Origin: Prevotella sp.
Lineage (GTDB): Bacteria; Bacteroidota; Bacteroidia; Bacteroidales; Bacteroidaceae
Direction of reading: 5' to 3'
Length of the DNA stretch: 64,000 nucleotides
NCBI GenBank assembly: GCA_017471245.1
Contig: JAFUVB010000047.1
Location: 24,835-88,834 of the forward strand
Positions within the stretch are counted from its first letter, which is position 1. Every line of letters starts with the position of its first letter. A program made the position numbers and the translations under genes. Below the pieces are notes generated by a model that saw only the letters and a program-made list of their open reading frames with translations, was not told where the DNA came from and did no database searches. This document shows, one piece after another, positions 162 through 50,075 of the stretch.

Positions 162-989
162 ATGACGGCAAAAAAGCATGCATCCAAAAAGTCTTCTTCC
201 CGGCGCAAGTCGAAAAAAGGCATTCTCAACCGCTATCCCAAATGGGCATGGTGGGCGGGAGGCATTTCTGTCGTGGCTATCTATGTATGGCTGTTCTATT
301 ATTTCTTCGTCGGTCCTTACGGCTTTCGGTGGCGCGCCATCTACGGTGATGCCAAATACCCCGACGGGTATGAGATTCGCGGCATCGACATCAGCCATTA
401 TCAGGGCAAGATAGATTGGGAAAAGCTGCAAGGGGCAATGATTGAAAGATGCCCCATACGCTTCATCATGATCAAGGCAACAGAGGGTTCATCAAGGTTA
501 GACGAAAACTTTAACGATAATTTCCGTAACGCATTGGATTACGGATTTATACGTGGCGCATATCATTTCTGGAGCAATCATTCGTCAGCACGCGATCAGG
601 CATATTTCTTCCTCAAGAAAGCCAAGCTCAAGGAGGGCGATCTGCCGCCCGTGCTCGATGTGGAACACAAACCGAAAGACATGTCGGTGGAAGACTTCCA
701 GCGCGAGGTGCTCACCTGGCTTCATATCGTTGAAGACAAATATCACGTGAAGCCCATCATCTATACCTATTATAAGTTCAAGATGAAATATCTCGGTACG
801 CCTGTGTTCGACGACTATCCCTACTGGATAGCCCACTATTATGTGGACAAAGTGGAGTATCAAGGCGAGTGGAAATTCTGGCAGCACACCGACGCAGGCC
901 GCCTTCCGGGCATCAAGGGATATGTGGACTTCAACCTTTATAACGGCAGCTACTACGACTTGAAGCAGCTTTGCATCGGCGGAAAATAA
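162..989 (+). CDS. GH25 family lysozyme (muramidase), membrane anchored
   Basis: The 275-residue protein has a basic Lys/Arg-rich N-terminus, one membrane segment at about residues 30-50, then a glycoside hydrolase family 25 domain at about 72-265. Family motifs are visible: GIDISHYQG with D76, IKATEG, RGAYHFW, LDVEH with D166 and E168, YWIAHY and D256. GH25 enzymes cleave the beta-1,4 bond between MurNAc and GlcNAc in peptidoglycan. The N-terminal anchor suggests a catalytic domain facing the periplasm, either for wall remodelling or competitor killing. The start at 162 precedes the basic stretch typical of type II membrane anchors. Confidence 0.9.
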   Translation: MTAKKHASKKSSSRRKSKKGILNRYPKWAWWAGGISVVAIYVWLFYYFFVGPYGFRWRAIYGDAKYPDGYEIRGIDISHYQGKIDWEKLQGAMIERCPIRFIMIKATEGSSRLDENFNDNFRNALDYGFIRGAYHFWSNHSSARDQAYFFLKKAKLKEGDLPPVLDVEHKPKDMSVEDFQREVLTWLHIVEDKYHVKPIIYTYYKFKMKYLGTPVFDDYPYWIAHYYVDKVEYQGEWKFWQHTDAGRLPGIKGYVDFNLYNGSYYDLKQLCIGGK

Positions 990-1182: not shown

Positions 1183-1482
1183 AAATTTATCCCGCACCCG
1201 CTGCGACACCTGCTGCGTCACCTGCTGCGTAATCTTCTGACAAGATTTTGTAAAAAATATTCATTAATCTGTAATTTGTACCTCAAGAACAGCTCTTACC
1301 AGAACGTCTTTGTATCGCAATGATCAATGGTATCATCTGTAATATGTACCTCAAGAGCGGCTCTTACCAGAACGTATTTGGAGCGCATTGATCAATGGTT
1401 CTCGGATTTCTTTACAAATTCGTGTCAGAAGATTACGCAGCAGGTGACGCAGCGGGTGTCGCAGCGGGTGCGGGATAAATTT
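1183..1482. repeat. Large inverted-repeat element with internal direct repeat (copy 1)
   Basis: Two 72-base arms (1183-1254 and 1411-1482) are inverted copies of each other with about three mismatches. They contain a 12-base theme, GACGCAGCAGGT with variants, repeated three times, next to TTTATCCCGCACCC. The space between them is filled by two direct copies of a 68-base unit starting at 1267 and 1335, each containing CTCTTACCAGAACGT. No credible gene lies in 990-1878. Related arms occur at 20282-20690 and 37027-37345. Confidence 0.8.
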
Positions 1483-1657
1483 GTGTAAATACTTGATTGT
1501 CAATAATTTGTGCGAGGTGTCGTTATAAAGTCTTTTTTAAGGTAGGAGGGGAGTAATAATCTTTTACAAACGAACCTTGCATTCATCCTTCCACAAGCAA
1601 GCTGCCAAACTTTTAAATATTCTTCATCATCGTTGAAAACTAATGTCTCACCAAATA

Positions 1658-4003: not shown

Positions 4004-5575
4004 ATGAAGAAATTATTGGTGATAGCTGCTTTCTCATTGGCTGTATTGCCGATGGCAGCACAGGAGACATACGAGAATGCCGCAGTAGCAACTCAAGACT
4101 TGAACGGTAGTGCGCGCTACGTGGGAATGGGCGGTGCCATGGAAGCACTCGGTGCCGACATATCCACCATCGGCACCAATCCTGCCGGTATAGGTTTGTT
4201 CCGCCACTCCATGGTGAGCGCTTCCATGGGCATGCTGAGCCAGCAGGGAGCGAAGACTTACGGCATTGCCGACAAGAATAAGGTGAGTTTCGACCAGGTG
4301 GGCTTCGTCTATGCCCGCCAAACCGGCGAGAACTCGTTCATGAACTTAGGTTTCAACTATCACAAGAGTCGCAACTTCAGCCAGATAGTCTCGGCTGCCG
4401 ACCGCCTGAGCGGTGCATCGTCGAACAAACTGTCGTATATCAAGGGCGATCTGGGGCTTCTCGGTCTGCAGTACAGTAATTCAGAGTGGTTGGGAAACAG
4501 CAATGCCTTCAACCAGATTGACTATCTGAACTACAATGCGCTGATGTATGACGAGGATGATGATACATTCTACTACAACGAAGCCAACGGCTATACCTTC
4601 AACAACGGTGTGAAAGGGCATGTGAATGATTTCGACTTCAACATCAGCGGCAACATCAACGACAAGGTGTTCCTCGGTTTTACCGTCGGCATCAAGGATG
4701 TTGACTATCAGAAATATAGCGAATATTCCGAAAGCCTGCTCACCGGTCGCGGCGATCCAGTGGGTAATGTGATTATCAAGGACAGTCGCACCATCGAAGG
4801 AACGGGTTTCGACATCAAGGCTGGTGTGACCTTCCGTCCTATTGAGGAATCTCCCTTCCGCATCGCATTGTATGTTCACACGCCGACATGGTATGACTTG
4901 AAGACCAGCAACTATACAACGCTGACCAACAACTCCACCGTGGGACTCTATAACAACGGCTATTCAGAAGAAAGATATGACTTCAAGCTCTATACTCCGT
5001 GGAAGTTCGGTGCCTCTGTAGGTCATACATTCGGCTCTTCGCTTGCCATTGGCGCCACCTACGAGTTTGCTGACTATGCGCATCTCGACAGTCGCGTGAA
5101 CACGGGAGAGAGCTACGACTGGTATTATGATACCTATACAGAGTCGAGCGAGCACGATTTTGCGATGAACGACCATACCAAGCAGTGCCTCAATGGTGTG
5201 CATACGCTGAAGGTGGGTGCAGAACTGAAGGCCGACGAAAACTTCGCAGTGCGCTTGGGATATAATTTCATCAGCCCGATGTACAGCAAAGATGCCTACA
5301 AGGATGGCAGCATCGACAGTCCGGGATCCTACTACGCTTCGTCTACCGACTATACCAACTGGAAAGCAACCAACCGTATCACGGCAGGTATCGGCTACAA
5401 CATCGGCAAGCTGAGCATGGATCTGGCTTACCAGTATACCGCTCAGAGCGGCGATTTCAGTCCTTTCATGAACTATTGGGATGATACGGATCGCACGATG
5501 GACAATGTCTGCAACAGCGTGAAGGTTGACAACAACCGCCATCAGCTGCTGTTCACGCTCGGCTATCATTTCTAA
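4004..5575 (+). CDS. OmpP1/FadL-family outer membrane transporter
   Basis: The start at 4004 was chosen because it opens a signal peptide (MKKLLVIAAFSLAVLPMAAQ); an in-frame ATG 51 bases upstream would spoil it. The mature 503-residue protein shows the FadL-type N-terminal signature YVGMGGAMEALGADISTIG followed by TNPAGIGLFR. It then alternates aromatic beta-strands through to the terminal LLFTLGYHF, ending in Phe as outer-membrane barrels do. Members move hydrophobic compounds across the outer membrane; the substrate here cannot be told. Confidence 0.82.
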   Translation: MKKLLVIAAFSLAVLPMAAQETYENAAVATQDLNGSARYVGMGGAMEALGADISTIGTNPAGIGLFRHSMVSASMGMLSQQGAKTYGIADKNKVSFDQVGFVYARQTGENSFMNLGFNYHKSRNFSQIVSAADRLSGASSNKLSYIKGDLGLLGLQYSNSEWLGNSNAFNQIDYLNYNALMYDEDDDTFYYNEANGYTFNNGVKGHVNDFDFNISGNINDKVFLGFTVGIKDVDYQKYSEYSESLLTGRGDPVGNVIIKDSRTIEGTGFDIKAGVTFRPIEESPFRIALYVHTPTWYDLKTSNYTTLTNNSTVGLYNNGYSEERYDFKLYTPWKFGASVGHTFGSSLAIGATYEFADYAHLDSRVNTGESYDWYYDTYTESSEHDFAMNDHTKQCLNGVHTLKVGAELKADENFAVRLGYNFISPMYSKDAYKDGSIDSPGSYYASSTDYTNWKATNRITAGIGYNIGKLSMDLAYQYTAQSGDFSPFMNYWDDTDRTMDNVCNSVKVDNNRHQLLFTLGYHF

Positions 5576-43066: not shown

Positions 43067-44398
43067 TTATTTCAAAATAATCTTCTGAGTCGCTTTTACT
43101 GTATTATTCTGAATCTGTACGACATTATATACACCAGATGCTCCGTTAAGTGTTATCTGGGTTTCTCTCTGTCCTGCGGGAACGTTGGATTGCTTTACCT
43201 GTGTGCCTGCTGCCGATATCACCTTGATTTCTGCCCCCGTAGCATTTTCATCGCCAAAGTTAATATTGATAGTTGCGTTTCTGTCTGCAATTGTTGGTGA
43301 TACGCATAGGCGGGCTGGAGCAACATTCACTTTCTTTATGTCCGTGGTTTCCCTGTCGATAAGATAGAAGAGAGTACAATTGTTGTCATTGATAGATGCG
43401 TCTATGGCAATGTATGTCTTTTCGCCAATTGTGACGATGTATACACGGTCTGGTTTTGCTGAAACTTCGCTTCCAAATGTCAAGTCATTAAGAATAGCAC
43501 CATCCGCAGAAACTATCTGGAAGCCAATTAAAGCCAACTTTGATTTTTCAGAGATGTTGGTAGTGCGCTTCGTCTCGATTCTTTCTTCACCATAAATACC
43601 GTCATCGACCACACTGTATTCCCCCGTGCCTTCTGTTGCCGAAAGAGTGTATTTGGGAATGATATACTCAAACTCTTCATCCTTATTGAATAGGGTTTGC
43701 GATGCCTCAAAATAGTAGTTGGCTCTACCGTCGCCATAGTTAAGGTTAATATTGCAGAGGCGAATGCGTCGGAGAGTTTCTTGCCGGTCTTCTGTTCGTG
43801 TTCCCGTTACGTGCCAGTCGGAGTAGGTTACGTTATAGCCAACATTATACATGTACATTCGTCCATTCTTGCAACGCCAGTAACGTTTGGGATATTGCTT
43901 TCCGAAATAATCGTAATTGAAATAGTAGTCGGAAACAGAATAGAAACTATTATCAGTAAAATCAACGACAATGAGGCTGTCGCCATTTTCTTCTTTCGTT
44001 ATGTGTATAGAACTATCCGTAAATGTTGGGTCGGAAGCCATTATCTGGTTCAGCCACGTCTCGTATGTGGTATACAAATCCTGTTCATATACACCCGCAA
44101 CATCTACCGAAACGACCTCGCGTTCCTCATCTTGGAAGGTAAGCTGATAATTGAAAGTTTTCTCTTGCCGAGTATTGATGGTTTTAATAAGTTCTATGTT
44201 TTCATCATAGACCAGCAGATTCTCGTCTGAGTCATCATGCATTGTAAGAAGAGGAACATTATTAAACGTGAACTCTTTGGGAATTGAAAGAGAACTACGG
44301 TCTGGCCAGCCCAAATCTAAACGCTCCGTGGTTTTAACTTGTGAATGTGCAGTGCATGCAAGCAGCATAGCTACTAACGAAATGATGATCTTTCTCAT
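43067..44398 (-). CDS. Exported protein with type IX-like sorting domain
   Basis: The 443-residue protein has a signal peptide (MRKIIISLVAMLLACTAHSQ). The C-terminal ~80 residues (from INFGDENATGAEIKVISAAG to QIQNNTVKATQKIILK) look like a type IX secretion sorting beta-sandwich. The middle is Tyr/Asn-rich and unlike known enzymes. It is driven from a promoter and structured leader shared with the unrelated gene at 49310-49774. The function is unknown; it is a likely surface protein. Confidence 0.72.
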   Translation of the reverse strand: MRKIIISLVAMLLACTAHSQVKTTERLDLGWPDRSSLSIPKEFTFNNVPLLTMHDDSDENLLVYDENIELIKTINTRQEKTFNYQLTFQDEEREVVSVDVAGVYEQDLYTTYETWLNQIMASDPTFTDSSIHITKEENGDSLIVVDFTDNSFYSVSDYYFNYDYFGKQYPKRYWRCKNGRMYMYNVGYNVTYSDWHVTGTRTEDRQETLRRIRLCNINLNYGDGRANYYFEASQTLFNKDEEFEYIIPKYTLSATEGTGEYSVVDDGIYGEERIETKRTTNISEKSKLALIGFQIVSADGAILNDLTFGSEVSAKPDRVYIVTIGEKTYIAIDASINDNNCTLFYLIDRETTDIKKVNVAPARLCVSPTIADRNATININFGDENATGAEIKVISAAGTQVKQSNVPAGQRETQITLNGASGVYNVVQIQNNTVKATQKIILK

Positions 44399-44419
44399 AG
44401 TTCTTCTTGTTTGATTGTT

Positions 44420-44710
44420 AATGAACGCAAGAGGCGCAGACTTTCGCCATACACCTCACGGCTCACCACAAGCCATCATCAAATATGGGAAATCTGCGCC
44501 CGTTAGCGGGACAGTCCCAATATTGATGATTTGCTCGTTTTCTCGCGGTGGTGATTGTGAGGTTATTGAGCAATATGTCTTTGCACTCTTTGCAGAATGC
44601 GACGACAAAATTACAAAAAGAAATCCAAATAGCGACAGGAAAAGACAAAAATATTGTAATACAAGAATGAAATAAGCTATAATACGATTCTGTATCTTCC
44701 CAAAATCGTC
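44420..44710 (-). promoter_or_regulatory. Conserved promoter-leader module, copy A (candidate structured RNA)
   Basis: On the minus strand a -7 box TAATTTTG (44606-44613) precedes about 190 bases of leader before the ATG at 44398. The leader predicts paired stems ACCUCAC/GUGAGGU and UCAUCAA/UUGAUGA, CCCG/CGGG and GGCU/AGCC hairpins, and GGCG/CGCC near its end. The same elements occur in copy B at 49795-50075 with compensatory changes. Homology extends upstream of the promoter past AGGAAAAGACAAAAATATT. Confidence 0.75.
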
Positions 44711-44794
44711 CTATTGATGCATTAGAAAAATGAATAAGTTATATGCCATAAGAAGAAAAAAACAACGAAATGCTGAAATTTGGGAATAATTTAC

Positions 44795-44802
44795 TATTTT
44801 TG
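44795..44802 (+). promoter_or_regulatory. -7 box of the phosphoribosyltransferase-like gene
   Basis: TATTTTTG lies 27 bases before the ATG at 44830. It excludes the earlier start at 44770, which would be untranscribed. Confidence 0.5.
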
Positions 44803-44829
44803 CAACGTAATTGTATAAAGACATTGTTT

Positions 44830-45633
44830 ATGGGCGTAACATTTGACAATCAAGAGCAGCGCTTCGTGTTCGATTTTGAGCACGATGGGGTGGAGGATAT
44901 TATCAGCCTGATGGGCGACGGCTATCAAGTGGAAGCATTCGGACGCTGCTTCTATTATGGCTATGAATTCTCGGAGCAGGTGGACGGAAATGTGCGCACG
45001 GCATTCATCAAACACGTCAAGTTTTCTGAGAACCTGCAGAATAATCCCGACTTGACGCAGTTTGTTAAGAAAGCCGTCGACAATCTTAATCGTAGAATTA
45101 ACCTCTACGACTATGATTTAGTGGTTATGCCCGAGTCATCGAGCAAAGTCAATCAGTACATGCTCCGCTACATCTACCGCTTTGCCCAGCCGTCATTGCA
45201 CAAGATGGAACTGGTAAAATCGCTACCCTCCAGCATTTCATTTGATATGGACGCATACGAGAAGCAATATCTTGACGATGTGTTAGAGAATGGAAGGCCA
45301 CGCTATACTGAAGCCCAAAAGAATGATGTCAAGCAGTCTATCAATAAGATGATGGACTTGATTCACCAGAAAGATTACTTCACGATTGCAAAGGATGTGA
45401 AGAAAAGCCGCTTTCGTCCATATATGATGTCTTTCCTCCGCTTTGCAAACAAGGAAGATGAGGAGTTATGCGCATCTATCAGGAAGCAGAACGTTCTGGT
45501 TATTGATGACGTAACAACCAGCGGCTCTACGCTTAACGAGATTCTGCGTACCCTCCGTATCCTCAACGAAGATAACGAAATCACAATCTTTAGCCTGATA
45601 GGCAGACGGGATTTGATGGCTGAGGCTATATAA
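44830..45633 (+). CDS. Phosphoribosyltransferase-like protein
   Basis: The start at 44830 gives MGVTFDNQEQRFVFDFEHDG and 267 residues. The C-terminal part has the PRPP-loop motif VLVIDDVTTSGSTLNE. The N-terminal half (about 1-140) is acidic and unrecognised, and a helical region with PESSSKVNQYMLRYI and YTEAQKNDVKQSINK lies between. The substrate is unknown. It sits in an accessory region next to decayed genes. Confidence 0.75.
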   Translation: MGVTFDNQEQRFVFDFEHDGVEDIISLMGDGYQVEAFGRCFYYGYEFSEQVDGNVRTAFIKHVKFSENLQNNPDLTQFVKKAVDNLNRRINLYDYDLVVMPESSSKVNQYMLRYIYRFAQPSLHKMELVKSLPSSISFDMDAYEKQYLDDVLENGRPRYTEAQKNDVKQSINKMMDLIHQKDYFTIAKDVKKSRFRPYMMSFLRFANKEDEELCASIRKQNVLVIDDVTTSGSTLNEILRTLRILNEDNEITIFSLIGRRDLMAEAI

Positions 45634-45646
45634 TCTTCGGACTACG

Positions 45647-45745
45647 CTATTCCTCTTCATACCCCTCCATCCGACAAATGTGGTGGGTCTCTTTCCGTGC
45701 CTCTCTCCAGCGAGGGAAATACTTGTCCATCAAGGGATGCTCATG
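45647..45745 (-). pseudogene. Remnant of a YgjP/DUF45-type metallopeptidase C-terminus
   Basis: The minus strand can be read MDKYFPRWREARKETHHICR followed by MEGYEEE and a stop. This is nearly the same as the C-terminal end of the DUF45-like gene at 50995-51279 (MDKYFPRW, RKETHRICRM). Only this end survives; it joins the 3' part of the truncated alkD-like gene. Confidence 0.75.
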
Positions 45746-46308
45746 CGCTGTTTCCACAGACAAGGACTATTGGCTAAGGAGTCTAATACTTCTTTTTTAA
45801 TGTCTAAGGATTCTGGGATTTTAAGGATTCTATCGTCATCCTTTGAATCCTTTAAATCTTTAGTATCAAGATCATTCCCCAGAAACGTCGGCATCATCAG
45901 CCAGTGTCCCAGAATCTTATAGACCGACAGATCCACCAAGTCCCAGTTGTTGGCCCGTTCGGCATATTGCAGGTAAAGCGTTACGATTTCATCCCGCTGT
46001 CTGATGGCTTGCTCATCATGTTCCAGTCGTTTCGTGGCCAATCGCTCAAACTGGTCAACAAGGATCAGAAAACCGCAAAGACGAACCTCATGCCAGCGGG
46101 AAAGCAACAGCTCATGGATCTCGCTCAAAGGGAAGTCTTTCGATACGACCTTAACAACTTCTCTCGTCTGCGGTACCTTAATGCCCAAGAACTCATCGCC
46201 CTCACCATACTCTCCTGGTCCGCTCTTAAAGAACCGCAAAAAGTTGAGTCGCTGCTCATGATCTCGCAGCGACTCCATGTATTCGATAATCTCTGATGCC
46301 CTTGTCAT
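45730..46308 (-). pseudogene. Truncated DNA alkylation repair protein (AlkD-like)
   Basis: The 192-residue product has the AlkD HEAT-repeat pattern (VPQTREVVKVVSKDFPLSEI, SRWHEVRLCGFLILV, YAERANNWDLVDLSVYKILG). It stops shortly after LWKQR, where full-length proteins (roughly 230 residues) continue. The stop lies inside a remnant of another gene in a different frame, so the 3' end was replaced by a deletion joining two genes. Residues about 146-178 (NDLDTKDLKDSKDD and following) are a low-complexity insertion. Activity is doubtful. Confidence 0.7.
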
Positions 46309-46348
46309 CCCTAATATTCTTCACTCTTCATTCTTCACTCTTCACTTT

Positions 46349-46930
46349 TTAGAGTCTTCTTTCGATCTCCTCCCAATTGACAATTTGCCAGAGGGCGGCG
46401 AGATGGTCAGGACGACGGTTCTGATAATCTAAATAGTAGGCATGCTCCCAAACATCGAAGGTCAGCAGAGGCTTCAAACCGCGTTGCACAGGATTAGCGG
46501 CATTCGTTTCTTGCGTGATCACGAGCTTGCCGTCTTTGTCTGCCGACAGCCACACCCAACCGGAGCCGAATAATGTTGCGCCCTTCTTTTGAAACTCCTC
46601 CTTGAATGCCTCGAACGAGCCGAAATCTCTTTCTATCGCATCAGCAATCTTTCCTGTGGGCTTATTATCTGCTTTGGGCGCAGCAAATTGTCCGAAGTAC
46701 AGCTCGTGATTCAGAATCTGTCCGGCATTGTTCAGAATGCCACCTTGCCCTTTCACTACAATCTCCTCCAACGACAGACCGGCCAGCGGACTATTCTCAA
46801 GCAGTCCATTAAGGTTATTCACATACGCCAACAGGTGCTTACCGTGGTGGAATCCAATTGTCTCTTTGCTAATCACTGGCTCTAATGCATCGTCAGCATA
46901 CGGCAGAGCCATCAACTCGAATTTCTTCAT
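46349..46930 (-). CDS. sodB: Superoxide dismutase (Fe/Mn family)
   Basis: The 193-residue protein has metal ligands His28 (FHHGKH), His75 (LNHELYF), Asp159 and His163 (DVWEHAYYLDY). The Gln at position 71 in NNAGQILNH is where iron-type enzymes place their second-sphere glutamine, so it is probably iron-using or cambialistic. It removes superoxide when the anaerobe meets oxygen. It has its own minus-strand promoter; the alkD remnant lies 40 bases downstream. Confidence 0.95.
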   Translation of the reverse strand: MKKFELMALPYADDALEPVISKETIGFHHGKHLLAYVNNLNGLLENSPLAGLSLEEIVVKGQGGILNNAGQILNHELYFGQFAAPKADNKPTGKIADAIERDFGSFEAFKEEFQKKGATLFGSGWVWLSADKDGKLVITQETNAANPVQRGLKPLLTFDVWEHAYYLDYQNRRPDHLAALWQIVNWEEIERRL

Positions 46931-46956
46931 ACCTTATTATTTTAAGTTTATAGGGG

Positions 46957-46964
46957 CAAAGATA
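46957..46964 (-). promoter_or_regulatory. -7 box of sodB promoter
   Basis: The minus strand reads TATCTTTG, 26 bases upstream of the sodB start codon. Confidence 0.7.
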
Positions 46965-47050
46965 GCAATTATTTCGCAAAAAATATTTGAAAAACAAAAC
47001 TTTTCTTTATTTAGAATGTAACCTTTCTGTTTTTGTAACGACAAAATGTC

Positions 47051-47116
47051 CTAACACCTAACATGAATCACAGCAAAACCTTTGTGTATTGGCAGTTCAG
47101 GTATGTTAGGTGTTAG
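47051..47116. other. 14-bp perfect inverted repeat in a 0.6-kb non-coding gap
   Basis: CTAACACCTAACAT (47051-47064) and ATGTTAGGTGTTAG (47103-47116) are exact inverted copies with a 38-base loop. The surrounding gap (about 46965-47571) holds no convincing gene on either strand. No T-run follows either arm, so it is not a clear terminator. Confidence 0.6.
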
Positions 47117-47571
47117 ACTTACCATGGGGGCTGCATGTCCATCTGTTCATGAGATTACGTCTCGATGATGACGAAGATTACTTCTCACTACCGACAAGCC
47201 GTAACCTCGCAATTCATTTCCAACTTGGGAACATTTCATTCCCAGTGTGGGAATAATGGTTGCATAGTTAGGCAGCAAATATCTATTAGTAAAGCAAGCC
47301 CCAAAGCCAAAGGGGTATTTTTTCCCCATGTCCGATGTCGATACCATGGCTGACAACGTAACTGCTATATTTTTACTTTAGAAAAACAAATTTTATCCAC
47401 ATTTTTAACTTTCGAAAGTAAAAACGTCATCTTGTAAACTGTAATTTGTAGCAATCTGTTTGAGTTTCAATTATTATCCAAATAGCACCACTTTTGCGAT
47501 GATTTCTTTGAATAGGCATAGAAAAAGACTGCCACGATGGATGGCCTATAGTATATATAATAAATAATGTG

Positions 47572-47610
47572 GAGAAACAACGAGCGGGAAACCGAGGACG
47601 AGGATGTCGG
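47572..47610 (+). repeat. 38-base repeat with hairpin core (copy B)
   Basis: This is a close copy of 42958-42995. Here GCGGGAA (47584-47590) and TTCCCGC (47617-47623) flank the core, forming a hairpin that could end transcription of the minus-strand gene ending at 47633. Confidence 0.75.
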
Positions 47611-47632
47611 CGCGGGTTCCCGCTTTAATACT

Positions 47633-49237
47633 TTATAGTTTAACGATAACTTCACGCCCTATCAGTTGTTTCAGCTTTGCGCCCTCAATATCGTCGGAGT
47701 AGATGGCTTTCCAATGGTTTTCATAGAGAGGATTGTTGCGGTCGGCAGAGCCGTCTTTGTCAACACGATAGAGAATGATGCGCTCTTTGTCGCAGATGCC
47801 CATGATGGATGAGCGGAGCATTCTTGCATAAGACAATCCCTGTGAGAATGCCTTTTGTTGTTCGGTAATCAGCGACATGTCGAGCTTAGCCTCAATAACC
47901 ATCGGAGCGTTTTCGAAATGCTTTTCTCCACGTGGGAAGAAAACGAAATCGGGAATGGCCTTTTCGTTGCGTCCAGCCTTCTGGGATAGCTGACGCGACC
48001 AGTCGGCTTCTGTATATCCAAGCCGTTCAAGCATCGGAATAAGTATGTTTTCCTCGACATCCTTTTCCAACTTGATTTCACCGAAGTCAATATCGCAGCC
48101 CTCAAACAGTTTCGGAAGCATAGAGGTGTCGCCTCCCTTTTCCTTAATCAATCGCAGCAGTTCGCCATAATTCTCAGCTGTTAATTCAATGCCATTGATG
48201 CCTTGCAAGTTGCGGCGAACTATGGGCACGTCTGAGAAGTAAGCATCGTCTTTCAAGTCCTTAAACGATATTTCCGGCACACGCACACCATCGCAAACCG
48301 TAGTACGGCAATGATAATAATCGAAGGGATTGAATATGCCCGCCGAATTTGCTCGCCAAATTGAATGGATGTAACTACGGGGCGATGTACAATATACAAT
48401 AATAATATCACCTCGGCGTGTACGTTCGTTGCACGACCATATATTTGCCAAATTATAGTCAGTGTCTTTGCCCAATTTGTCGAGATAGTCGAAATCTCCT
48501 TTCCCCCCAGCACCTGTAAGCCACACATTCACTGGTGCAGGCAGCTCTGCTTTCGCTTTTTCATCCAACAGCATCGGAGCAAAGTCGTAAAGGCAAGCAC
48601 AGAATTCAGCGTCCGTCAGTTGGTTCTCTCTCTGAAATGCATTCATCACTTTGCAAATATCATAATAGTAACCAAGATAAGTCAAATAGTCTTTTGAGTG
48701 CGGTATTGGCGGCAATTCCAAGCCAAGTGCATCACAATTACGTTGTATGGCGTCAAAGTGGTTTGGTAATATGACAGGCTTGAAAATTTCTACATTATAA
48801 TAAAGAAACGTTGAGAGTAAATGAACCAATGCGGTCTTGGCACGGTAGTTGTCTCTTTTGATCCAGACAGATTTGGCATCATCATAGAACACAATTTTTT
48901 CATCCTCTTCAATACGAGCCTCAATAACTTCAAAATCTTTAGCGAATGCGATGAAATCCTCTTTTGTAATCGCCTCTTTTGTTAGTATGTCATTATCTTT
49001 TAGATTGCAAAGAAGTTGCATATACCATATACAAACATGTTCAGGGTTAATCATGCTTCCCCATTTCTTTGCATATTCAAACAAGCCTTCAATGCCTTTG
49101 TAGACATCTTCAACTTCGGGATTGAATAACTCAATAACTCTCTTTCCATTCTCTGAATCCTTGTAAAGATTCCACATTTTCTTGTTCATATCTTCGATGT
49201 TTTTTGGTTTATTCAAAAAATAGTTGAACCTTTGCAC
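47633..49237 (-). CDS. EVE/PUA-like and PD-(D/E)XK nuclease protein, candidate modification-dependent restriction factor
   Basis: The 534-residue protein has an unrecognised helical N-terminal half. A PUA/EVE-like segment (about 236-365) follows, with VNVWLTGAGGKGDFDYLDKL, RGDIIIVYCTSPRSYIHSIW and PEISFKDLKDDAYF. A nuclease-like domain (about 385-534) has AIPDFVFFPRGE (PD at 429-430) and APMVIEAKLD (EAK at 449-451), as in type I HsdR N-terminal domains. EVE domains read modified cytosine in known restriction systems, so a defence role is inferred. GTG at 49237 or ATG at 49189 may be the start. Confidence 0.7.
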   Translation of the reverse strand: MQRFNYFLNKPKNIEDMNKKMWNLYKDSENGKRVIELFNPEVEDVYKGIEGLFEYAKKWGSMINPEHVCIWYMQLLCNLKDNDILTKEAITKEDFIAFAKDFEVIEARIEEDEKIVFYDDAKSVWIKRDNYRAKTALVHLLSTFLYYNVEIFKPVILPNHFDAIQRNCDALGLELPPIPHSKDYLTYLGYYYDICKVMNAFQRENQLTDAEFCACLYDFAPMLLDEKAKAELPAPVNVWLTGAGGKGDFDYLDKLGKDTDYNLANIWSCNERTRRGDIIIVYCTSPRSYIHSIWRANSAGIFNPFDYYHCRTTVCDGVRVPEISFKDLKDDAYFSDVPIVRRNLQGINGIELTAENYGELLRLIKEKGGDTSMLPKLFEGCDIDFGEIKLEKDVEENILIPMLERLGYTEADWSRQLSQKAGRNEKAIPDFVFFPRGEKHFENAPMVIEAKLDMSLITEQQKAFSQGLSYARMLRSSIMGICDKERIILYRVDKDGSADRNNPLYENHWKAIYSDDIEGAKLKQLIGREVIVKL

Positions 49238-49269
49238 TTGCTGTTAGAAATGACAGTTCTAAATGGTTT

Positions 49270-49302
49270 GGACGGATGTCGTAGTGATACGATGTCCGTC
49301 CT
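49270..49302. other. Long hairpin between two minus-strand genes
   Basis: About 14 bp of stem (GGACGGATGTCGTA with TACGATGTCCGTCC, two G-T pairs) and a 4-base loop lie between the small gene and the nuclease gene. It may attenuate or separate transcription of the two. Position may be off by one base. Confidence 0.6.
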
Positions 49303-49309
49303 TTGCCAT

Positions 49310-49774
49310 TTACATAGAAACAATGTCTGCATATTCTTTGGGAGAGTTCCAAGTCATAACCTCTACTTGAGCCTCTTTGCTCAAACTTACGGCTTCGTCG
49401 AATGCCCAGCGCTCATCAAAACCATTCTGACCCTTTTCTTCCTTGGCAATTCTCAGAAGCTCCTGATAATAATCATATCTCCAGCTACTCAACTCTTCGC
49501 TGACAAAATACACAGGCACTTTGCCATTCCTTGATGAATAGACATAAGTATGTACTCCCTCACCGTCTGCATCAATTGCAATTGCCTCATGTTCAAAACC
49601 CTCATCCATGTCAACAGCATAAACATATTTGCCTTTGAAGACTTTAACCAGCGCCAACTTTTTATAGTCCAACTCAATGTCATCAGCAAATGTCATAGCT
49701 GCTTCCATTCGTTCCTTTTCAAGAGTACGAAGCTTCAGCGTATCTACGATTTGAGCATTACAACCATTATTCAT
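49310..49774 (-). CDS. Small acidic protein of unknown function under a shared leader
   Basis: The 154-residue soluble protein (ATG at 49774 chosen over a GTG at 49783) includes IELDYKKLALVKVFKGKYVY, AIAIDADGEGVHTYVYSSRN and a C-terminal EVMTWNSPKEYADIVSM. No domain was recognised. It is the first gene after the leader copy B and is followed by the EVE-nuclease gene 73 bases later, so both may respond to the same signal. Confidence 0.65.
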   Translation of the reverse strand: MNNGCNAQIVDTLKLRTLEKERMEAAMTFADDIELDYKKLALVKVFKGKYVYAVDMDEGFEHEAIAIDADGEGVHTYVYSSRNGKVPVYFVSEELSSWRYDYYQELLRIAKEEKGQNGFDERWAFDEAVSLSKEAQVEVMTWNSPKEYADIVSM

Positions 49775-49794
49775 ATCATGCACGTTTTCTAATT

Positions 49795-50075
49795 AATTGA
49801 AGAGGCGCAGACCTTCGCCATACGTCTCTCGGCTCACCACAAGCCACATCCTAATATGGGAAAGCTGCGCCCGAAGCGGGAACAGTCCCAATAAAGGATG
49901 TTTGCTCATTTTACTCAGGTGGTGATTGAGAGACTATTGAGCAATATGTCTTTGCGCACCTTTCGGATTGCGAGGGTAAAATTACACAAATTATCCGAAA
50001 ATGCAGCAGGAAAAGACAAAAATATTAAAAAACGCGGGGAAATATGTTATAATACGGTTCCGTATCTTATTTATT
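49795..50075 (-). promoter_or_regulatory. Conserved promoter-leader module, copy B (candidate structured RNA)
   Basis: This is homologous to 44420-44710 in the same orientation. A -7-like box TAATTTTA lies at 49977-49984. The predicted stems are GUCUCUC/GAGAGAC, ACAUCCU/AGGAUGU, UUGCUCA/UGAGCAA, CCCG/CGGG and GGCU/AGCC. An inverted repeat ATACGGTTCCGTAT (50052-50065) lies upstream of the promoter. Spacing from the structured part to the start codon is about 25 bases. Confidence 0.75.

Follow-up and report, generated by a model that had tools for sequence, protein, structure and literature searches.

We analyzed a 64,000-nucleotide (nt) stretch of Prevotella sp. DNA (GenBank assembly GCA_017471245.1, contig JAFUVB010000047.1, positions 24,835 to 88,834; referred to here as the window), in which two unrelated genes are preceded on the minus strand by copies (A and B) of one promoter-leader segment. 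Our interpretation, which we favor with moderate confidence, is that this segment comprises a promoter and a new class of cis-acting, riboswitch-like attenuator leader that stands mostly before genes for accessory exported proteins and is exchanged among genes as a module. The attenuator reading draws on features of the sequence, i.e., a conserved structure, two pairings available to one strand, the promoter and gene context, a bias among the downstream genes (referred to here as cargo), and the occurrence of the leader before unrelated genes. A preliminary description of the window had proposed that a conserved RNA, perhaps a riboswitch or a protein-binding leader, acts in cis to control different cargo; further copies, covariation, the strand, and unrelated cargo all supported this proposal.

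Both segments were present on the minus strand where that description had placed them (A, 44420-44710; B, 49795-50075), 5.4 kb apart and on one strand. A BLAST match between them ran from 119 nt upstream of a 147-nt structured core to 4 nt past the core (275 columns, 81%), and the two cores agreed at 116 of 147 positions. Because a 19-mer of the core occurred twice in the window against an expectation of 0.03 (up to three mismatches), chance is excluded as the source of the likeness. Each copy has, in minus-strand order, a TAnnTTT(G/A) box, a short hairpin region, and the core; the start codon follows the core end at a distance of 34 nt in A and 29 nt in B. Copies were scored with two covariance models, R1 (nested helices only; 53 sequences) and the wider R2; A and B were used in building both models.

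Positions 44433 to 44579, minus strand: structured core of copy A (GACAUA...UCUGCGCC; 147 nt; R1, 169.9 bits; R2, 144.6 bits).
Positions 49804 to 49950, minus strand: structured core of copy B (147 nt; R1, 162.7 bits; R2, 137.8 bits).

The leader proved to be widespread in the genus of the window. It was detected by blastn (E value of 0.01 or better; some matches short) in 67 of 200 genomes, the window's own included, and an iterated profile search enlarged this set. Covariance searches, which the preliminary description had named as a way to look for more copies, found many. With R1, copies were present in 84 of 200 genomes of the genus (own included; 35 of the 86 of good quality), with up to six per genome; with R2, they were present in 72 of 150 (29 of 69 of good quality), with up to seven detected per genome. 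Outside these sets, R1 detected copies in 8 of 294 genomes sampled from the rest of the order and in none of 294 further genomes drawn from the class (two of these are members of the genus), and R2 matched 1 of 295 other genomes of the phylum draw (33.4 bits). In the window's own genome, R1 found four copies; besides A and B, there was a copy on contig C7 and a divergent copy on C28 (32.7 bits; 92 bits with R2, a model built with that copy). Eleven of the 18 named records with the core 19-mer were titled Prevotella or Prevotellaceae. Four loci with the 19-mer but no R1 match (L060, L073, L074, and L076) were rejected as chance occurrences.

Rfam (release 15) matches in the window at the gathering level were limited to three tRNAs, and in eight loci with copies no Rfam match overlapped the elements at E values of up to 3. 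Copy A (226 bases, blastn) had no match in plasmid or phage collections, and the core 19-mer had none in IMG/VR. An IMG/VR contig of 114,945 bp (L224), which may be either phage or host DNA, has one copy (1472-1633, minus strand; 55.9 bits). A contig of a metagenome-assembled genome from roe deer rumen (L067) has two copies about 4.2 kb apart in opposite orientations (533-692, minus strand; 4902-5048, plus strand).

Numbered along the core of copy A, the predicted helices are P1 (3-6/129-132), H1 (7-12/44-49), H2 (17-23/121-127), H3 (26-32/111-117), the hairpin PH (106-108/118-120), and a long-range helix, T (80-90/137-147). An arm, H4, consists of a lower stem (H4a; 51-57/98-104), a middle part (H4b), and an apical hairpin (H4c; 66-72/79-86). 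The 3' strand of H3 is the loop of PH (i.e., a pseudoknot).

Positions 44557 to 44563 and 44453 to 44459, minus strand: H2 of copy A, 5' and 3' strands (7 of 7 pairs covary).
Positions 44548 to 44554 and 44463 to 44469, minus strand: H3 of copy A, 5' UCACCAC and 3' GUGGUGA (5 of 7 pairs with E values of <0.01).
Positions 44460 to 44474, minus strand: PH hairpin of copy A, GGC..GCC (2 of 3 pairs double-changed; best pair with an E value of 0.18 in the tree-based test).
Positions 44568 to 44573 and 44531 to 44536, minus strand: H1 of copy A, 5' UUGCUC and its partner GAGCAA (a pairing that would cross H2).
Positions 44476 to 44529, minus strand: H4 arm of copy A (H4a, 44523-44529/44476-44482; middle H4b; apical H4c, 44507-44514/44494-44502).
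Positions 49824 to 49830 and 49834 to 49840, minus strand: 3' strands of H2 and H3, respectively, of copy B (5' strands, 49928-49934 and 49919-49925).
Positions 49847 to 49900, minus strand: H4 arm of copy B, from the A/B comparison in the register of the family model.

The covariation that had been read from copies A and B was significant in the family by two routes. In a sequence-only MAFFT alignment of 53 copies, double changes occurred in all seven pairs of H2, all seven of H4a, and two of the three of PH, and none of 500 shuffles matched the structure on any of five measures. An alignment of 101 copies was evaluated against our own tree-aware null, which replays substitutions on the tree (this was not R-scape); because this alignment had been fitted to the nested helices, the test is biased toward them. 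All 21 pairs with E values of <0.01 were proposed pairs; these top 21 column pairs (E values, 6e-12 to 7e-3) lay in H2, H3, H4a (7 of 7 pairs), and H4c (two pairs). Twenty-one later copies (20 distinct rows) were used in building neither model, although they were found and aligned with R2; 91% of their cells were paired (H2, 100%), and the 20 distinct sequences had double changes in all 37 pairs. H1 was paired in 95.8% of cells without a double-changed pair in the MAFFT alignment, and it is a probable helix on the basis of this conservation and of isolated double changes seen by eye.

Between A and B, for which about eight compensatory pairs had been counted by hand, the register of the family model gave eight double-changed pairs with pairing kept (three in H2 and five in H4a). 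One H4a pair and one outer apical pair were lost in B, and one T pair changed from A-U in A to C.U in B. The GGCU/AGCC hairpin (PH), described as constant, and the CACCAC/GUGGUG pairing (H3) were both correct for A and B, and both vary with compensation in other copies. On this evidence, the element is a conserved, structured domain with covariation in a predicted 5' leader, as is expected of a riboswitch.

The CCCG/CGGG hairpin of the preliminary description was likewise correct, but part of it doubles as a strand of a second helix that had been omitted there. This strand (GGCGCAGA, in H4; T5 below) has two partners, namely, the local apical hairpin and the 3'-terminal UCUGCGCC (T3 below), with which it forms T.

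Positions 44490 to 44500, minus strand: T5 strand of copy A, common to the apical hairpin and the long-range T helix.
Positions 44429 to 44443, minus strand: T3 strand (44433-44443) and tail UCUU of copy A, from the sequence.
Positions 49861 to 49871, minus strand: T5 strand of copy B, from the A/B comparison.
Positions 49800 to 49814, minus strand: T3 strand (49804-49814) and tail UCUU of copy B, from the A/B comparison and the sequence.

T was left out of every covariance model. At least seven consecutive pairs (G-U allowed) were nevertheless present in 94% of 144 distinct copies, and T was found in 20 of the 21 later copies. The pairing score was 21.04 for a copy's own strands versus 18.75 (standard deviation [SD], 0.19) for partners swapped between copies, and on the MAFFT alignment three of eight T pairs were double-changed, with T paired in 96%. 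No T pair was significant in the tree-based column test of 101 copies, whose structure-fitted alignment loses register at T in divergent copies; we base the claim on the swap test and on the MAFFT alignment. Among the 140 copies having T, 136 had half or more of the T5 strand within the apical hairpin, and the apical pairing also exceeded swaps (12.22 versus 11.30 [SD, 0.19] and 15.49 versus 13.50 [SD, 0.29]). Since both pairings beat swaps, one strand has been kept complementary to two others. The calculated stabilities were approximately -16 kcal/mol for the T duplex and -9 to -10 kcal/mol for the apical hairpin. The four positions after T3 were U in 93, 58, 85, and 85% of one group of 84 copies and in 88, 95, 73, and 60% of the other group of 60. 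As judged from sequence, T, H4c, and the U-rich tract are arranged as in a switch of which one arm resembles a terminator, the switching itself being predicted.

For the divergent group, we do not claim a partner of T3 farther downstream that looked good by eye: it scored 11.87 versus 11.48 swapped (SD, 0.13) over all copies and, with no clear gain, 12.65 versus 12.29 (SD, 0.34) within that group. Divergent leaders (L172, L208, L166, and others) have an additional segment 3' of the core that contains GUUAGUGC and GUAUUAAC, by eye a possible hairpin before the start codon.

The -7-like box reported on the minus strand was found in both copies.

Positions 44606 to 44613, minus strand: -7 box of copy A, TAATTTTG.
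Positions 49977 to 49984, minus strand: -7-like box of copy B, TAATTTTA.
Positions 44583 to 44600, minus strand: P0 hairpin of copy A, between box and core, GCAUUCUGCAAAGAGUGC (fold, -9.4 kcal/mol).
Positions 49954 to 49971, minus strand: P0 region of copy B, an imperfect hairpin placed by analogy with A.

The 50 nt upstream contained a TAnnTTTG box in no fewer than 69 of 84 and 53 of 60 copies of the two groups, and the P0 stretch had family mean z values of -3.5 and -2.9, respectively, versus mononucleotide shuffles. At paired positions, G-U outnumbered A-C by 138 to 30 in P1, H2, H4a, H4c, and H1, a figure that omits H3 (0 to 1) as well as H4b (11 to 20) and PH (0 to 19), whose register (H4b and PH) is lost in divergent copies; over all eight helices, the ratio was 149 to 70. 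This excess of G-U, together with the promoter box and the orientation of the genes on the same strand, supports the minus strand as the RNA, as had been proposed.

Farther upstream, about 102 to 116 nt from the core, A and B share a palindrome-like block, and by eye a TATCRTTTCGCC-like stretch is similarly placed in other copies. This block is possibly a transcription factor site.

Positions 44682 to 44695, no strand assigned: palindrome-like block of copy A, ATACGATTCTGTAT on the plus strand, within the A/B-shared region.
Positions 50052 to 50065, no strand assigned: palindrome of copy B, ATACGGTTCCGTAT on the plus strand, with perfect 6+6 arms, within the A/B-shared region.

An open reading frame (ORF) of at least 60 amino acids (aa) began within 200 nt downstream on the same strand in 133 of the 144 distinct copies, and the median distance from the core to the start codon was 51 nt in one group and 73 nt in the other.

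Positions 43067 to 44398, minus strand: cargo of A, 443 aa, with a signal-peptide-like start and a weak Por_Secre_tail match at residues 375 to 441 (E value, 0.00042, below the cutoff).
Positions 49310 to 49774, minus strand: cargo of B, 154 aa, without a Pfam or PADLOC match.
Positions 47633 to 49237, minus strand: second gene after B, 534 aa, with a weak VRR-NUC match (E value, 0.0043, below the curated cutoff).

The A cargo, described as an exported protein, has a signal-peptide-like start; its type IX secretion tail is a weak match. The label "EVE-nuclease" for the gene after the small acidic protein was not confirmed, the VRR-NUC match being below the cutoff and no PDB sequence being matched. 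Signal-peptide-like starts, called by a crude script, were present in 101 of 125 cargos of at least 120 aa (A and B not included) versus 81 of 361 flanking genes (i.e., the others in the same loci; odds ratio, 14.5; P = 5e-31), and in 14 of the 17 later copies' cargos with an ORF. Among the cargos scanned with Pfam, BspA-type leucine-rich repeats (LRR_5) occurred in 10 of 71 and 9 of 59; most other families occurred once, the single or few cases including peptidases, DarT, an EcoRI-type methylase, T5orf172, and a phage-collar domain. Three of seven proteins tested matched PADLOC. No ribosomal-protein or amino acid biosynthesis family was among 22 Pfam families or among the 25 listed of 30, and many cargos had no Pfam match. 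The trait that the cargos have in common is, as predicted from their sequences, export and not a pathway. The fourth copy of the window's own genome (L116) and a copy from a different genome (L173) precede proteins that look alike by eye, neither with a signal-peptide-like start; the L173 cargo had no Pfam or PADLOC match.

The sharing of a leader by unrelated genes, first described for A and B, is a property of the whole family. Of 34 pairs of copies with cores at least 90% alike, 26 had nonhomologous cargo (blastp E value, 1e-5), although for one of these (L039/L068) the ORF had been called wrongly and the gene is in fact the same. Among 28 nonhomologous pairs with a printed identity of 0.90 or above (L039/L068 included), similarity ended 1 to 8 nt after the core in 22 and began within 8 nt before it in 12; near-identical pairs are not independent of one another. 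Most clear-cut is the third copy from the window's own genome (L098), which matched a copy in genome G043 (L051) at 98.7% over the core and a few bases, with nothing else similar at an E value of 1e-5. Copy B and L034 have cores 95% identical, similarity from -49 to +4, and nonhomologous genes.

Seen from the cargo side, the family of the L034 cargo was represented at 18 loci (16 of 200 genomes), of which 3 have the leader directly upstream; in addition, L253 has a weak partial match (17.1 bits) about 1 kb upstream, and L241, with about 200 nt of upstream sequence, cannot be judged. Relatives of cargo A occurred in 8 of 200 genomes of the genus, own included, with the leader present in the own genome and before a 58%-identical relative; the six others had none (one chance-level match, 12.2 bits).

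Recent transposition or conversion within genomes found no support: the highest identity among 74 within-genome pairs was 0.83, versus a mean top value of 0.85 with shuffled genome labels. The mean within-genome identity of 123 copies (0.602 versus 0.561; SD, 0.011) was above all shuffles and was not significant inside the three clusters tested. No direct repeats were noticed by eye at the edges of nine copy pairs. Plain gene duplication was rejected for A and B because their cargo is unrelated; 17 of 40 relatives (the window's genome among them) had matches to the stretch between A and B, for the most part one gene at a time. Active transposition would fit these comparisons less well than would recombination between leaders or the capture of genes by units of promoter and leader.

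In the mechanism that we propose, the start site, the termination, the assignment of the on state, the ligand, and the route of module exchange are what we infer. Transcription would probably start immediately downstream of the TAnnTTTG box, which would put P0 at the 5' end of the mRNA. A domain of about 130 nt would fold next, with H2 and H3 in line, H3 formed through the loop of PH, H1 probably crossing H2, and H4 between. The folded domain, perhaps stabilized by a ligand or a protein, would favor the local hairpin and allow transcription to proceed into the gene. In the other case, the long-range pairing T would form ahead of the U-rich tract, and transcription would stop. Our assignment of the "on" fold is a guess based on where that tract lies. 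Over evolution, the leader would change genes as a module. A more far-reaching version, which we offer tentatively, is that of a self-contained, horizontally exchanged promoter-plus-switch cassette responding to one shared signal (for example, a second messenger or a cue from the envelope or from export), with which Prevotella and its relatives would place newly acquired exported and defense-like genes under common control; freely varying stems would allow its passage between unrelated genes.

Several observations weigh against the attenuator reading. The loop of T, at about 46 nt, exceeds that of an ordinary intrinsic terminator, a pattern scan (loops of 3 to 8) listed no terminator at A or B, and the tail in both is merely UCUU. 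T was not detected in 4 of 144 copies, and 11 of 144 lacked an ORF of at least 60 aa within 200 nt. T and H4c might belong to the folds of different copies, or T to one static fold. T also does not cover the start codon, given the median distances above. H1, P1, H4b, and PH had no significant pair in the tree-based test of 101 copies. The cargo (71 and 59 proteins scanned with Pfam) is tied to no single metabolic or transport pathway, unlike that of most riboswitches, and the export bias was obtained with a crude rule, not with SignalP, and with flanking genes that are not independent.

There is an appreciable, if minor, probability that the leader binds a protein or acts on translation or mRNA stability, recruiting a regulator or protecting the 5' end, with T as part of that fold. 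Hairpins at the 5' end are known from stabilizing 5' untranslated regions, and P0 is located at the probable 5' end; the presence of T in nearly all copies is also as expected of a fixed fold. A single static fold, however, has no need for the complementarity of T5 to its local partner, and the U-rich tract after T3 speaks against this alternative. A leader-peptide attenuator, in which a ribosome translating a short ORF from the conserved GUAUGG over T3 opens T and P1 (CAUA/UAUG) hides the start codon, is unlikely.

Positions 44418 to 44450 (A) and 49789 to 49821 (B), minus strand: short ORF from GUAUGG over T3, encoding MAKVCASCVH (A) and MAKVCASSIN (B).

In favor of this leader-peptide alternative, UAUGG occurs at that place in 117 of 144 copies, 93 of which have the same phase to T3 (median, 17 codons); against it, 27 of 144 copies are without UAUGG, and 24 of 117 are in another phase and encode different peptides.

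Slightly less probable still is a small mobile DNA element, similar to miniature inverted-repeat transposable elements (MITEs) or repetitive extragenic palindromes (REPs), that is transcribed by chance. The near-identical cores before nonhomologous genes, with matches often stopping at the core edge, are what such an element would leave. The copies, however, hold one orientation and place relative to genes, show compensatory evolution of an RNA fold, include no recent within-genome copies, and had no edge repeats by eye. Common descent of a duplicated gene region with a functionless RNA, which would account for the 5.4-kb spacing of A and B and for their shared promoter-side sequence, is in our view already refuted by covariation in a deeply divergent family, with nonhomologous cargo as a further objection; its probability is negligible.

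The attenuator reading has counterparts among known systems. In transcriptional riboswitches with a terminator platform, two mutually exclusive helices compete for a common strand, and a U-rich tract follows one of these helices; the leader resembles these riboswitches in its covarying pseudoknotted domain in a predicted 5' leader and in its common strand, whose two helices would likewise be exclusive. It differs in that its cargo is exported and accessory instead of belonging to a single pathway, in that it passes, in our reading, from gene to gene, and in the long loop of its terminator-like helix; any ligand is hypothetical. Cyclic di-GMP riboswitches occur in several copies before diverse genes for surface and extracellular proteins, as does this leader, which by contrast had no match in Rfam scans and for which a second messenger is only hypothetical. 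MITE- and REP-type elements are short units at unrelated sites, as are these copies, which differ in their fixed place and orientation before genes, their RNA-level covariation, and their lack of recent within-genome duplicates. We place the leader, on sequence grounds, as a new class within a known kind of RNA that is unusual for its exported cargo and module exchange.

Bacteroidales-1 (RF01693), Bacteroides-1 (RF01694), and Bacteroid-trp (RF01692) are structured RNAs of Bacteroidetes, some of them cis-regulatory (Weinberg et al. 2010, PMC2864571). The leader is likewise a structured RNA of that phylum, but no Rfam model matched at the elements (gathering level in the window; E values of up to 3 in eight loci). 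PMC8040213 mentions two Prevotella-only RNA candidates near uvrC and thousands of other candidates. In searches of an open-access library we recognized no description of this RNA, which may overlap unnamed candidates in the supplement of PMC8040213; term searches of PMC11109978 and PMC8632094 gave no matches.

Should our reading hold, a regulatory RNA class that is absent from the searched database would be present in 42 to 48% of the species genomes sampled in one genus (84 of 200 and 72 of 150). This class would have pseudoknots and a visible switching strand, with as many as seven copies detected in one genome. The leaders are about 190 nt long, so that ligand and mechanism are directly testable, and protection of GACAUAUUGCUC, GAGCAA, and GUAUGG on probing would suggest a ligand. 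The bias toward exported cargo offers a handle on the control of surface and secreted proteins in these bacteria, and the presence of the leader before unrelated genes would exemplify the spread of a regulatory RNA as a module.

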